NCBI GenBank assembly: GCA_017404265.1
Contig: JAFRCS010000014.1
Location: forward strand, 1 to 64,000
Reading direction: 5' to 3'
Length of the DNA stretch: 64,000 bases
Source of the DNA: Mogibacterium sp.
GTDB taxonomy: Bacteria > Bacillota > Clostridia > Peptostreptococcales > Anaerovoracaceae
Shown here: piece after piece, positions 10,528 through 27,464 of the stretch
Layout: the number at the start of each line of letters is the position of its first letter
How positions within the stretch are numbered: the stretch's first letter is position 1
Position numbers and translations under genes: made by a program
The notes under the pieces: generated by a model
Database searches by the model: none
The model's input: only the letters and a program-made list of their open reading frames with translations
What the model was told of the DNA's origin: nothing

Positions 10528-10588
10528 GGGGATCCGAGAAAACCGGCACGATCCGGGCAAAAAAACATAATTAGTACATAACAACATA

Positions 10589-10627
10589 TTGACACTAAAA
10601 ACCCGTATGACTACAATATATAGTGTT
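10589..10627 (+). promoter_or_regulatory. nrdD promoter with overlapping NrdR box
   Basis: TTGACA (10589-10594), exactly 17 nt, then TACAAT (10612-10617): a near-ideal sigma-A promoter. The -10 lies inside TACAATATATAGTGTT (10612-10627), a good match to the published NrdR-box consensus ACACWATATATWGTGT. NrdR bound here would block polymerase. The usual second NrdR box 31-32 bp away is not convincing. Confidence 0.85.
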
Positions 10628-10734: not shown

Positions 10735-13011
10735 ATGAAAAGCATTGTAAAGAGAGACGGCAAGGAGATGCCGTTCGATGAGTCTAAGATCTTCAACGCC
10801 ATATACGCTGCTAACAAGGCAGTCGACGGCGAGAAGATGACGAGCATCGACTTCACTTACCTTACCAAGAAGGTCGTTGAGCAGCTTGAAGGCGACACAT
10901 GCACAGTCGAGCAGGTGCAGGATATCGTCGAGGCAATGCTCATCAAGTATGACTGGGAAAAGACCGCCAAGGCATACATCCTCTACCGCGCTGAGCACGC
11001 AAAGATCAGAGAGGCTGAGTCCGATCTGATGAACATCTACAACGAGCTCACTTACTCCTACTCCAAGGATGCGGACATCAAGAGAGAGAACGCCAACATC
11101 GACGGCGACACCTCGATGGGCACCATGCTCAAGTACGGTTCCGAGGGCGCAAAGTACTTCGTAGACAACTACGTACTGCCTAAGGACATCGCAAAGGCAC
11201 ATATCAACGGTGACATCCATATCCACGATAAGGATTTCTATATGCTCACCGAGACATGCTGCCAGATCGACCTTATCAAGCTTTTCAAGGACGGATTCTG
11301 CACAGGCCACGGCTACCTCAGAGAGCCGCAGTCGATCATGAGCTATGCTTCACTGGCATGCATCGCGATCCAGGCCAACCAGAACGAGATGCACGGCGGC
11401 CAGTCGGTACCAAACTTCGACTACGCTATGGCGCCGGGTATCGCAAGGACATATATAAAGGAATACTTCTCTGCGCTGACTGAGATAATCGCCGCGAAGC
11501 TCGACGTGGCGTATGCGGACGCTAAGGCTATCGCTGACAAGATCAAGGCTGAAGCTGAGGCTCCGACTCTGGCGACTAACGGCTCGTACGGCGAAGTGCT
11601 GGGCGAGTGGTTCGATAAGTCAGGCTGGGCCGGCGGACTCACAAGAGATCAGCTGGTAAGATGCAGCGCTCAGGCCGCCGAGGCAGCATGGGCAAGGACG
11701 GACAAGATGACCTACCAGGCTATGGAGGCTCTTATCCACAACCTCAACACCATGAACTCGAGAGCCGGCGCTCAGGTGCCGTTCAGCTCGGTCAACTTCG
11801 GAACAGACACGACTCCTGAAGGCCGCATGGTCATCAAGAACTTCCTGCTCGCCACAGAGGCGGGACTCGGAAACGGCGAGACTCCGATCTTCCCGGTTTC
11901 GATCTTCAAGGTCAAGGAAGGCGTCAACTACAACGAGGGAGATCCTAACTACGATCTCTTCAAGCTGGCCATCAGATGCAGCGCAAAGAGGCTGTTCCCT
12001 AACTTCAGTTTCCTGGATGCTCCGTTCAATCTGAAGTTCTACGAGGAAGGCAACTACAATAAGGAAGTTGCCTACATGGGATGCCGTACAAGAGTTATGG
12101 CCAACAGCCATGATCCTTCAAAGGCGGTCGTATGCGGCAGAGGAAACCTCAGCTTTACATCGATCAACCTGCCAAGACTCGCGATCGAGGCTAACAGAGA
12201 CTTCGACGTGTTCTACAAAAAGCTGGATGCTATGATGGAACTCGTTGCAAGACAGCTGCTGCACAGATTCAGGATCCAGTGCACAAAGAAGGGCCGTAAC
12301 TATCCGTTCCTGATGGGACAGGGTATCTGGATCGACTCCGACAACCTCGGACCTGATGACAGCGTAGCTGAGATCCTCAAGCACGGAACTCTTTCCATAG
12401 GATTCATCGGACTTGCGGAGACCATGAAAGCTCTCACGGGCAAGCATCACGGCGAGGACGAGAGAGTCAGAGAGCAGGCATTCGAAGTCATCAAGCACAT
12501 GAGAGAGTTCTGCGACAGAAAGAGCGCAGAGACCGGCCTCAACTTCACTCTGCTGGCTACACCGGCTGAGGGACTTTCCGGCAGATTCGTCAAGATAGAC
12601 AGAGAGAAGTACGGCAAGCTGCCTGGCATCACTGACAGGGATTACTATACAAACTCCTTCCACGTGCCGGTATACTTCCCGATCGGAGCTTTCGAGAAGA
12701 TCGCGATCGAGGCGCCGTATCATGACCTCACAAACGCGGGACACATCAGCTATGTAGAGCTGGACGGCGATACCGCCAAGAACCCTGAGGCCTTCGAATC
12801 TGTCATCAGATTCATGAAGGAAGCAGGAGTCGGCTACGGCAGCGTAAACCATCCTGTAGACAGAGACCCTGTCTGCGGATACACGGGAGTCATCGATGAC
12901 GTTTGCCCAAGATGCGGAAGACGCGAGGGCGAGCCTGTCACTATCGAGAGACTGAACGAGCTTCGCATGAGGTACCCAAGCGTACCTGTTCCTTGCGACT
13001 GCACACACTAG
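10735..13011 (+). CDS. nrdD: Anaerobic (class III) ribonucleoside-triphosphate reductase, large chain lacking the glycyl-radical segment
   Basis: 758 residues. An N-terminal ATP-cone domain (about 1-90, starting MKSIVKRDGKEMPFDESKI) senses ATP/dATP. The catalytic ten-stranded barrel has the candidate thiyl-radical cysteine Cys450 in YMGCRT and the loop CGRGNLSFTSINLPRLA. The C-terminus has a zinc-ribbon remnant: Cys714, then Cys724 and Cys727 in CPRCGR, with Asp711 where the fourth cysteine is expected, and a novel tail ending CDCTH. The expected glycyl-radical motif (RxxGYL) is absent. It is found instead in the separate ORF at 13184. The enzyme makes dNTPs without oxygen. Expression is likely under NrdR control. 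Confidence 0.93.
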   Translation: MKSIVKRDGKEMPFDESKIFNAIYAANKAVDGEKMTSIDFTYLTKKVVEQLEGDTCTVEQVQDIVEAMLIKYDWEKTAKAYILYRAEHAKIREAESDLMNIYNELTYSYSKDADIKRENANIDGDTSMGTMLKYGSEGAKYFVDNYVLPKDIAKAHINGDIHIHDKDFYMLTETCCQIDLIKLFKDGFCTGHGYLREPQSIMSYASLACIAIQANQNEMHGGQSVPNFDYAMAPGIARTYIKEYFSALTEIIAAKLDVAYADAKAIADKIKAEAEAPTLATNGSYGEVLGEWFDKSGWAGGLTRDQLVRCSAQAAEAAWARTDKMTYQAMEALIHNLNTMNSRAGAQVPFSSVNFGTDTTPEGRMVIKNFLLATEAGLGNGETPIFPVSIFKVKEGVNYNEGDPNYDLFKLAIRCSAKRLFPNFSFLDAPFNLKFYEEGNYNKEVAYMGCRTRVMANSHDPSKAVVCGRGNLSFTSINLPRLAIEANRDFDVFYKKLDAMMELVARQLLHRFRIQCTKKGRNYPFLMGQGIWIDSDNLGPDDSVAEILKHGTLSIGFIGLAETMKALTGKHHGEDERVREQAFEVIKHMREFCDRKSAETGLNFTLLATPAEGLSGRFVKIDREKYGKLPGITDRDYYTNSFHVPVYFPIGAFEKIAIEAPYHDLTNAGHISYVELDGDTAKNPEAFESVIRFMKEAGVGYGSVNHPVDRDPVCGYTGVIDDVCPRCGRREGEPVTIERLNELRMRYPSVPVPCDCTH

Positions 13012-13024
13012 TTGAATGGGAGCC

Positions 13025-13078
13025 TGTGGGTTTTCCACATGGTTATCCACAGGCTTATCCACAACATGATGTGGTTCT
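13025..13078. promoter_or_regulatory. Cluster of DnaA-box-like sites
   Basis: Two perfect TTATCCACA boxes (13043-13051 and 13055-13063) lie 12 bp apart, next to TTTTCCACA (13031-13039) and two weaker inverse matches (TGTGGGTTT at 13025, TGTGGTTCT at 13070). They sit between nrdD and its detached glycyl-radical gene, so DnaA could act on the downstream promoter. No origin genes are nearby. Confidence 0.6.
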
Positions 13079-13112
13079 AAGTAAAAAAAACAACAATATA
13101 CATTAATATTGC

Positions 13113-13140
13113 TTCACAAATACGTGAATTGAGATATAAT
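13113..13140 (+). promoter_or_regulatory. Putative promoter of the glycyl-radical ORF and nrdG
   Basis: TTCACA (13113-13118), 16 nt, then a perfect TATAAT (13135-13140). The -35 is part of an inverted repeat TTCAC-AAATAC-GTGAA (13113-13128). A second inverted repeat CAATAT-ACATTA-ATATTG lies just upstream (13094-13111). Both could be operators. Confidence 0.6.
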
Positions 13141-13183
13141 AAACGGGCATGAAAAAGAGAAGTGAGAGGTACGGAGGTACGTT

Positions 13184-13351
13184 ATGAATAACAAGGCAGT
13201 AAAGAACATCAACGGCAAGGTCGGAGAAGGTGTGGAATTCGAAAGAATCAGAAGGATCACAGGATATCTCGTAGGCACACTCGACAGATTCAACAACGGC
13301 AAGAGAGCCGAGGTAGAGGACAGAGTCAAGCACGGTCTGTCCCATAATTAA
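13184..13351 (+). CDS. Stand-alone glycyl-radical domain of class III ribonucleotide reductase
   Basis: 55 residues. The sequence contains FERIRRITGYLVGTLDRFNN (from residue 19) and then KRAEVEDRVKH. This is the C-terminal glycyl-radical region that normally ends NrdD; Gly27 in RITGYL is the predicted radical site, made by NrdG. The ATG is preceded by GGAGGT at 5 nt, and a promoter lies upstream, so it reads as an independent gene and not a sequencing break. No frame of the 172-nt gap joins it to nrdD. Its first residues (GEGVEFER) resemble the tail of the large chain (GEPVTIER), suggesting origin by duplication of the 3' end of nrdD. It presumably binds the large chain to place the radical near Cys450. 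Confidence 0.88.
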   Translation: MNNKAVKNINGKVGEGVEFERIRRITGYLVGTLDRFNNGKRAEVEDRVKHGLSHN

Positions 13352-13370: not shown

Positions 13371-13410
13371 ATAGCCGCCAGGCCCGGAAAGCGGTCGGCG
13401 GCTATTTTTA
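13371..13410 (+). terminator. Terminator/attenuator-like hairpin between the glycyl-radical ORF and nrdG
   Basis: ATAGCCGCC (13371-13379) pairs perfectly with GGCGGCTAT (13397-13405), followed by TTTTT. CGACCG (13353-13358) could instead pair with CGGTCG (13392-13397), which overlaps the terminator stem by one base. Partial read-through would lower nrdG relative to the upstream ORF. Confidence 0.6.
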
Positions 13411-13429: not shown

Positions 13430-13999
13430 ATGGAAGAGATGGATACGAGCAAAGTCATAAGGGTATGCGGCATAGAGCCTGAGTCCATAGTCGATGGGCC
13501 GGGATTCAGGTACGTCCTTTTTGTGCAGGGGTGCCCTCATCACTGCAAAGGCTGCCACAACCCTGAGTCATGGGATCCAAACGGCGGATACGACATGACC
13601 GTCAGGGATATACTCGACGAGATAAAGGCAAAGCCTAACATCAAGGGCGTCACTTTCTCAGGCGGCGAGCCGTTTGAGCAGGCGAGAGCACTCGTCGATC
13701 TGGCCCGCTATCTTAAAGGCATGCGCTATAGCCTCATGAGCTACAGCGGTTATACTCTTGAGGAGCTTGAGGCCAAAGCGGAGAGCGATTCTGCGGTCGG
13801 AGAGCTGCTGGGTATGATCGACATACTGGTGGACGGCCGTTATGAGGAAAAACTCCGCAACCTTACGCTTGTATACTGCGGCTCTGAGAACCAGCGTGTC
13901 ATAGACATGAACAAGACGCGCGAGGCAAGGGCTGCCGGCAAGGGCGATGAAGTAGTGCTGTACAAGTCGGACTTCGATTTTGAGATAAAGATAATCTAG
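13430..13999 (+). CDS. nrdG: Anaerobic ribonucleoside-triphosphate reductase activating protein (radical SAM)
   Basis: 189 residues. The CxxxCxxC cluster motif CPHHCKGC binds the [4Fe-4S] that cleaves S-adenosylmethionine. SIVDGPGFRYVLFVQGC before it and TFSGGEPFEQ after it are typical of NrdG. The enzyme abstracts hydrogen from the NrdD glycine; here the target glycine would be on the separate 55-residue chain. A longer ORF from 13361 is open but runs through the hairpin; the ATG at 13430 fits the family, and an ATG at 13439 is also possible. Confidence 0.94.
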   Translation: MEEMDTSKVIRVCGIEPESIVDGPGFRYVLFVQGCPHHCKGCHNPESWDPNGGYDMTVRDILDEIKAKPNIKGVTFSGGEPFEQARALVDLARYLKGMRYSLMSYSGYTLEELEAKAESDSAVGELLGMIDILVDGRYEEKLRNLTLVYCGSENQRVIDMNKTREARAAGKGDEVVLYKSDFDFEIKII

Positions 14000-27147: not shown

Positions 27148-27464
27148 CAATGTTCCTTTCCCATGTTTCACGCGTTTCACGAAATCGAACAAAACGCGTG
27201 CTCAAAAATTTTTTAAAAACTGTGGATAAATCCTGTTGACACAGGGAAAAACCTCGTTCTAGCGTTGAAATTCCAACGATACAGGTTGCGGACTTTTCCA
27301 CATGCATAAGTGGAAAAGATTGTATACGATTTTTAAAATCTTTGTGGAAAAGTCGCAGACCTTGAAAAATAAGGCATTTTGGTTTTGTTGAAAAATATGT
27401 GACAAAAAAACGAACATAATGTGAAGATGCACGTTTTATGTTTTTTAAAAAGTATAAACTGCTG
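27148..27464. other. AT-rich intergenic region with DnaA-box-like inverted repeats
   Basis: 317 nt without a gene. It holds TGTGGATAA (27221-27229, a perfect inverse DnaA box), TTTTCCACA (27294-27302) and TGTGGAAAA (27343-27351). The last two belong to a near-perfect 19-bp inverted repeat (27284-27302 and 27343-27361), within which lies a second hairpin CTTTTCCACA-TGCATAAG-TGGAAAAG. No T-run follows. CACGCGTTTC...AAACGCGTG near 27170-27200 is another small inverted repeat. Confidence 0.6.

Follow-up and report, generated by a model that had tools for sequence, protein, structure and literature searches.

Predicted DnaA boxes overlapping a predicted NrdR operator ahead of the gene for the radical-bearing piece of a split class III ribonucleotide reductase in Mogibacterium

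Results

A class III ribonucleotide reductase encoded in two pieces

The DNA analysed here (the window) is a stretch of 64,000 nucleotides from Mogibacterium sp., whose genome was searched as a 1.83-Mb assembly of 20 contigs, 97.7% complete. Its nrd cluster contains three genes, all on the forward strand:

10735-13011, forward: nrdD large chain, 758 aa, with the ATP-cone and the catalytic and Zn part; the glycyl-radical C-terminus is absent
13184-13351, forward: small glycyl-radical chain, 55 aa (RRITGYLVG..FNNGK), completing NrdD
13430-13999, forward: nrdG activase, likely start ATG 13430

The NrdD profile NF005497 (746 positions) is matched at positions 2-711 by the ORF at 10735-13011 and at positions 709-744 by the 55-residue ORF, which has RRITGYLVGTLDRFNNGKRAEV. 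Since the glycyl-radical segment with its RITGYL motif fills out the profile in this manner, the gene products constitute a class III ribonucleotide reductase (RNR) split immediately before that segment. A PF02867 search of the source genome found no class I or II RNR large subunit, so that the split NrdD is probably the sole RNR of this organism. The same genome encodes both NrdR and a DnaA protein with its DNA-binding domain. NrdD split ahead of the glycyl-radical segment is widespread, occurring in many Bacillota and in some Fibrobacter and Desulfovibrio with gaps of about 7-300 bp (loci L127-L198); our literature searches gave no description of it, which is not proof of absence.

Three predicted DnaA boxes in a fixed register

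The region between the large and small chains holds an ordered series of predicted regulatory sites:

13031-13039, forward: DnaA box 1, TTTTCCACA, in the same 12-bp register as boxes 2 and 3
13043-13051, forward: DnaA box 2, TTATCCACA, 3-bp gap from box 1
13055-13063, forward: DnaA box 3, TTATCCACA, 3-bp gap from box 2; its last 5 bp, CCACA, form the left arm of NrdR box 1
13059-13074, forward: NrdR box 1, CCACAACATGATGTGG, 11/16 to consensus, overlapping DnaA box 3 by 5 bp
13091-13106, forward: NrdR box 2, CAACAATATACATTAA, 16-bp spacer from box 1
13113-13140, forward: small-chain promoter, TTCACA (13113-13118), 16 nt, TATAAT (13135-13140), scoring 11/12

An initial inspection of the letters (the sequence-only reading) had reported two perfect boxes 12 bp apart just upstream of this promoter; both are where it placed them, as is the promoter, and the box at 13031-13039 extends the series to three, arranged head-to-tail and 12 bp from start to start. 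Double boxes separated by 2-3 bp are preferred by E. coli DnaA in vivo, the bound sites including nrdA and nrdD (PMC11317965), and DnaA-regulated promoters are recognized by such consensus pairs beside a promoter, as found here. We predict that the three boxes form a cooperative DnaA site. The sequence TTATCCACA has just 16 copies in the whole 1.83-Mb source genome, and the double-box pattern TTWTCMACANNNTTWTCMACA occurs there only at the array, twice in overlap, with no match to the reversed control. Variants TTATCCACA, TTTTCCACA and TTATCAACA are also present around the genome's own dnaA locus.

AT-rich DNA following DnaA boxes is what a chromosomal replication origin would offer, and the array could be read as one. 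We give this almost no credence and rejected it: origin-type boxes surround dnaA (rpmH-dnaA-dnaN), the array lies away from the dnaA/dnaN region, and cumulative GC skew makes no turn at 13 kb in the 64-kb window.

Conservation of the array within one part of the genus

We compared 36 same-genus genomes, in 30 of which the small chain directly follows nrdD; two of the 30 fetched stretches hold the nrdD end only, and nearly all genomes compared are metagenome assemblies. The array is present in 14 of these 30 loci, confined to one part of the tree, and absent from 16; its hosts are gut and rumen bacteria related to Mogibacterium. In one of the 14 array loci the first box is reduced to ATTTCCACA. 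Mapped on the NrdD tree, array presence requires two changes, against 9.6 with shuffled labels, a control that asks solely whether the trait is clustered. Two changes fit one gain and one loss of the array. The expectation of the sequence-only reading that close relatives would keep the boxes thus stands for nearly half of the genus and not for split nrdD in general, as the split-nrdD loci of other genera also lack the array. Its absence from 16 of 30 same-genus loci indicates that the array is dispensable for the split enzyme.

Where the array occurs, the distribution of substitutions is uneven. Substitutions were counted for the 13 carriers with nrdD sequence, on the NrdD tree simplified to its drawn forks, where carrier L005 could not be placed. 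The 27 box columns show 11 inferred changes, nine of them at position 3 (A/T), the other two being a C-to-A change at position 6 and a change at position 1; under an even spread over the nine positions of a box, the probability that position 3 would receive nine or more of the 11 is about 1e-7. Variation is thus almost restricted to a position at which DnaA tolerates it. By the same tree count, the six gap columns show 15 changes and 12 upstream columns 58. When 12 array carriers were searched genome-wide, all 23 matches to the double-box pattern fell at the small-chain locus, and the reversed control gave none; a looser 2-bp-gap pattern had no match in nine array carriers among genomes G000-G022. 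Because changes concentrate at position 3 and pattern matches are restricted to this locus, the conservation is that of selection for a predicted DnaA-type site rather than of a chance run of boxes.

The high rate of change upstream also bears on a different reading of the region, as an RNA hairpin or terminator at the nrdD 3' end. A perfect 9-bp inverted repeat (AGCCTGTGG/CCACAGGCT, 13021-13029/13047-13055) runs into the array, and a strong fold is predicted (z = -3.5). No T-run follows it, however, and its left arm is not conserved, lying in the flank that changed so freely while the boxes stayed; we rejected this interpretation as highly improbable.

Inheritance of DnaA control from relatives with a fused nrdD was likewise considered and rejected, as no DnaA pair was found in five fused loci of other families, nor in the split-nrdD loci of other genera. 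Seven double-box loci followed in other families of the order included none at an nrdD or nrdG gene. One of another family (genome G047) has a DnaA double box just upstream of a glutaredoxin-like ORF (L034:1501-1521).

A second predicted NrdR operator beneath the array

NrdR requires paired boxes with spacers of 14-17 (or 24-27) bp (PMC12051234). Two predicted pairs of this kind occur in the nrd cluster, that of the small chain and one at nrdD:

10579-10626, forward: NrdR pair at nrdD, TAACAACATATTGACA (10579-10594) and CTACAATATATAGTGT (10611-10626), 32 bp start to start, overlapping the nrdD promoter
10589-10617, forward: nrdD promoter, TTGACA (10589-10594) and TACAAT (10612-10617), with the NrdR pair over both -35 and -10

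The sequence-only reading had NrdR at the nrdD promoter, apart from the DnaA boxes. That separation does not hold, since the second pair stands in the small-chain operator and overlaps the array. The complementary proposal, that the DnaA boxes are specific to the small-chain promoter as opposed to that of nrdD, is borne out: in none of the array carriers tested does a DnaA-like box lie within 300 bp ahead of nrdD.

The small-chain pair has the attributes of an NrdR regulon member (two boxes, a spacer within 14-17 bp, a nearby RNR promoter and an encoded NrdR), its first box being weak. Taken in the source alone, 13059-13106 is a modest match (21/32) that one in 100 mononucleotide shuffles equals, and the case for the pair rests on position and conservation. 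The same scoring, applied to E. coli, recovered the known nrdDG pair as best match; at E. coli nrdAB two pairs tied for best, the older 0+1 pair and the 1+2 pair of PMC12176259. Relatives without the array also retain a pair with a spacer near 16 bp, and in them box 2 is present and box 1 often nearly matches the consensus (ACACAATATAGAGTGT, ACACTATATAATGTGG); the box 1 score is 14-15/16 in several of these relatives, compared with 11-12/16 in array carriers. Because the array-less relatives keep the pair in this form, the NrdR operator probably came first, and the array was apparently built onto it. The weaker box 1 of array carriers may mean that NrdR affinity there is reduced or lost.

If it were lost altogether, the array would be a plain activator or repressor site for the small chain, with no NrdR interplay and a decayed NrdR box beside it. 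The degeneracy of box 1 in carriers agrees with this, as does the placement of DnaA boxes apart from NrdR boxes at E. coli nrdA and nrdD, yet the right arm of box 1, TGTGG, which lies outside any DnaA box, is invariant in 14/14 carriers, and box 2 is identical in 12/14. We consider simple decay unlikely.

The small-chain transcription unit

A promoter similar to TTCACA-16-TATAAT is found in nearly all same-genus loci that have the intergenic region. In array loci the distance from DnaA box 3 to the -35 hexamer is nearly constant, at 58 bp in 12 of 14 and 57 in the other two. Transcription is predicted to start near 13147, which sets the array at about -116 to -84 and the NrdR pair at about -88 to -41. 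One further feature follows the small chain:

13371-13409, forward: terminator-like hairpin between the small chain and nrdG, arms ATAGCCGCC (13371-13379) and GGCGGCTAT (13397-13405), then a T-run

Most relatives also have a hairpin at this position, with a different sequence; the present one was not listed by a simple terminator scan, which takes loops of 3-8 only. With such a hairpin between the two genes, the small gene looks like a short transcription unit of its own, from which nrdG would be reached by readthrough. The promoter had been proposed to drive only the small chain and nrdG; we would assign it mainly the small chain, and nrdG less directly. The hairpin suggests, in addition, that less nrdG is made than small chain. 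Readthrough from nrdD could be another source of small chain.

These spatial relationships also help to weigh the view that the array is a datA- or DARS-like site, controlling initiation by DnaA titration or nucleotide exchange and located in an nrd intergenic region by chance. Tandem double boxes are typical of E. coli DARS and datA (PMC11317965), this is the only tight array found in the source genome, and a second DnaA-box cluster lies 14 kb off. The fixed distance from box 3 to the promoter and the overlap with a probably older NrdR operator both speak for transcriptional use; moreover, the array comprises three boxes only and is missing in half of the genus. This seems to us even less likely than the decayed NrdR box.

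Discussion

A proposed composite operator setting the supply of the radical subunit

We interpret the intergenic region as a composite operator, a site shared by DnaA and NrdR that would set the supply of the radical subunit, and give this reading a probability of roughly two in three. With dATP/ATP bound, NrdR would repress the small chain along with nrdD, and array-bound DnaA would modulate the small chain alone, most likely through competition with NrdR or through contact with RNA polymerase from upstream; synthesis of the radical chain would then track DnaA-ATP/ADP status. The earlier proposal of a DnaA control over the radical chain that is independent of nrdD remains, in this amended form, the best reading. 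Because the predicted DnaA and NrdR sites both lie upstream of the -35 hexamer, the layout speaks for DnaA as an antirepressor or activator more than for DnaA occluding RNA polymerase, though sequence does not fix the sign of regulation. A more specific proposal is that DnaA and NrdR compete for the overlapping operator, which controls only the glycyl-radical chain, so that initiation would license dNTP synthesis by release of the radical subunit and not of the whole enzyme; this we put forward tentatively, as possible rather than probable.

Control of RNR by DnaA is already known. At E. coli nrdAB, high DnaA-ATP represses and DnaA-ADP or low DnaA-ATP activates (review, PMC8203912), and there too an RNR promoter with NrdR boxes is preceded by head-to-tail DnaA boxes with a 3-bp gap (TTATCCACAaagTTATGCACT; PMC11317965, PMC8203912). 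That operon, however, encodes a class Ia enzyme and has two DnaA boxes, with the NrdR pair separate from and downstream of them; in Mogibacterium there are three boxes, they overlap NrdR box 1, and they precede the radical chain only. E. coli nrdDG is closer in enzyme class, DnaA being bound in vivo at a double box (TTAAGAACAggTTATCCACA) upstream of this class III RNR (PMC11317965), but its boxes are reverse-oriented and lie between the NrdR pair and the start of nrdD, which is one intact gene. Among Bacillota, the NrdR operators of Listeria and Streptococcus (nrdDG/nrdHEF) likewise have paired 16-bp boxes, the spacer being 15-16 bp in most bacteria, and S. pneumoniae nrdHEF provides a precedent for -35 and -10 elements both downstream of NrdR box 2 (PMC12051234); the Mogibacterium locus differs from them in the DnaA array over box 1 and in having a second NrdR operator within the nrd cluster. 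For B. subtilis and Caulobacter, neither of them enteric, DnaA has also been proposed to regulate RNR genes, with no target limited to the radical subunit described in the review that covers them (PMC8203912).

The Mogibacterium layout differs in the overlap with an NrdR box, in its third DnaA box and in being limited to the radical chain. We found no literature description of a DnaA array overlapping NrdR boxes before a radical-subunit gene, and a search for DnaA together with NrdR in Clostridium gave nothing relevant. The locus appears to be a natural case of a replication initiator and a nucleotide-sensing repressor at one operator, placed before only the radical piece of the sole RNR found. 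With it, the link between initiation and dNTP supply can be tested in an anaerobe, for which same-genus relatives that lack the array offer natural controls.

Stand-alone radical chains and a second cluster of DnaA-box-like sites

GrcA (YfiD) serves as a spare radical part for pyruvate formate-lyase, and lone NrdD chains may present a parallel. Same-genus genomes (L092-L113, e.g. L113:3501-3692) contain up to four extra NrdD glycyl-radical chains per genome with no adjoining nrdD. Several are in conjugative-element modules; that of L113 adjoins a T4SS pilin-like gene, a TraG/VirD4-type coupling protein (PF02534, E 4e-66) and an ArdC-like gene. These extra chains could serve the split NrdD of the host in that way, as spare radical parts. 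Among the best 43 matches to the small chain in IMG/VR contigs (L201-L243), 39 are short lone ORFs for which no NrdD could be recognised up to 3 kb away; of these, 14 loci end at a contig edge and one (L224) has a frame of a few residues as read. The only PHROGs families in which the small-chain sequence appears are those of the NrdD large subunit, where it forms the end.

The second cluster of DnaA-box-like sequences in the window occupies 27170-27464 (27221, reverse; 27294, forward; 27343, reverse; and weaker ones), together with palindromes and TGTTTCACGCGTTTCAC. The region has no credible Rfam match and is perhaps a locus of DnaA titration or reactivation. It is intergenic and conserved within the genus, with 80-87% identity in near relatives.
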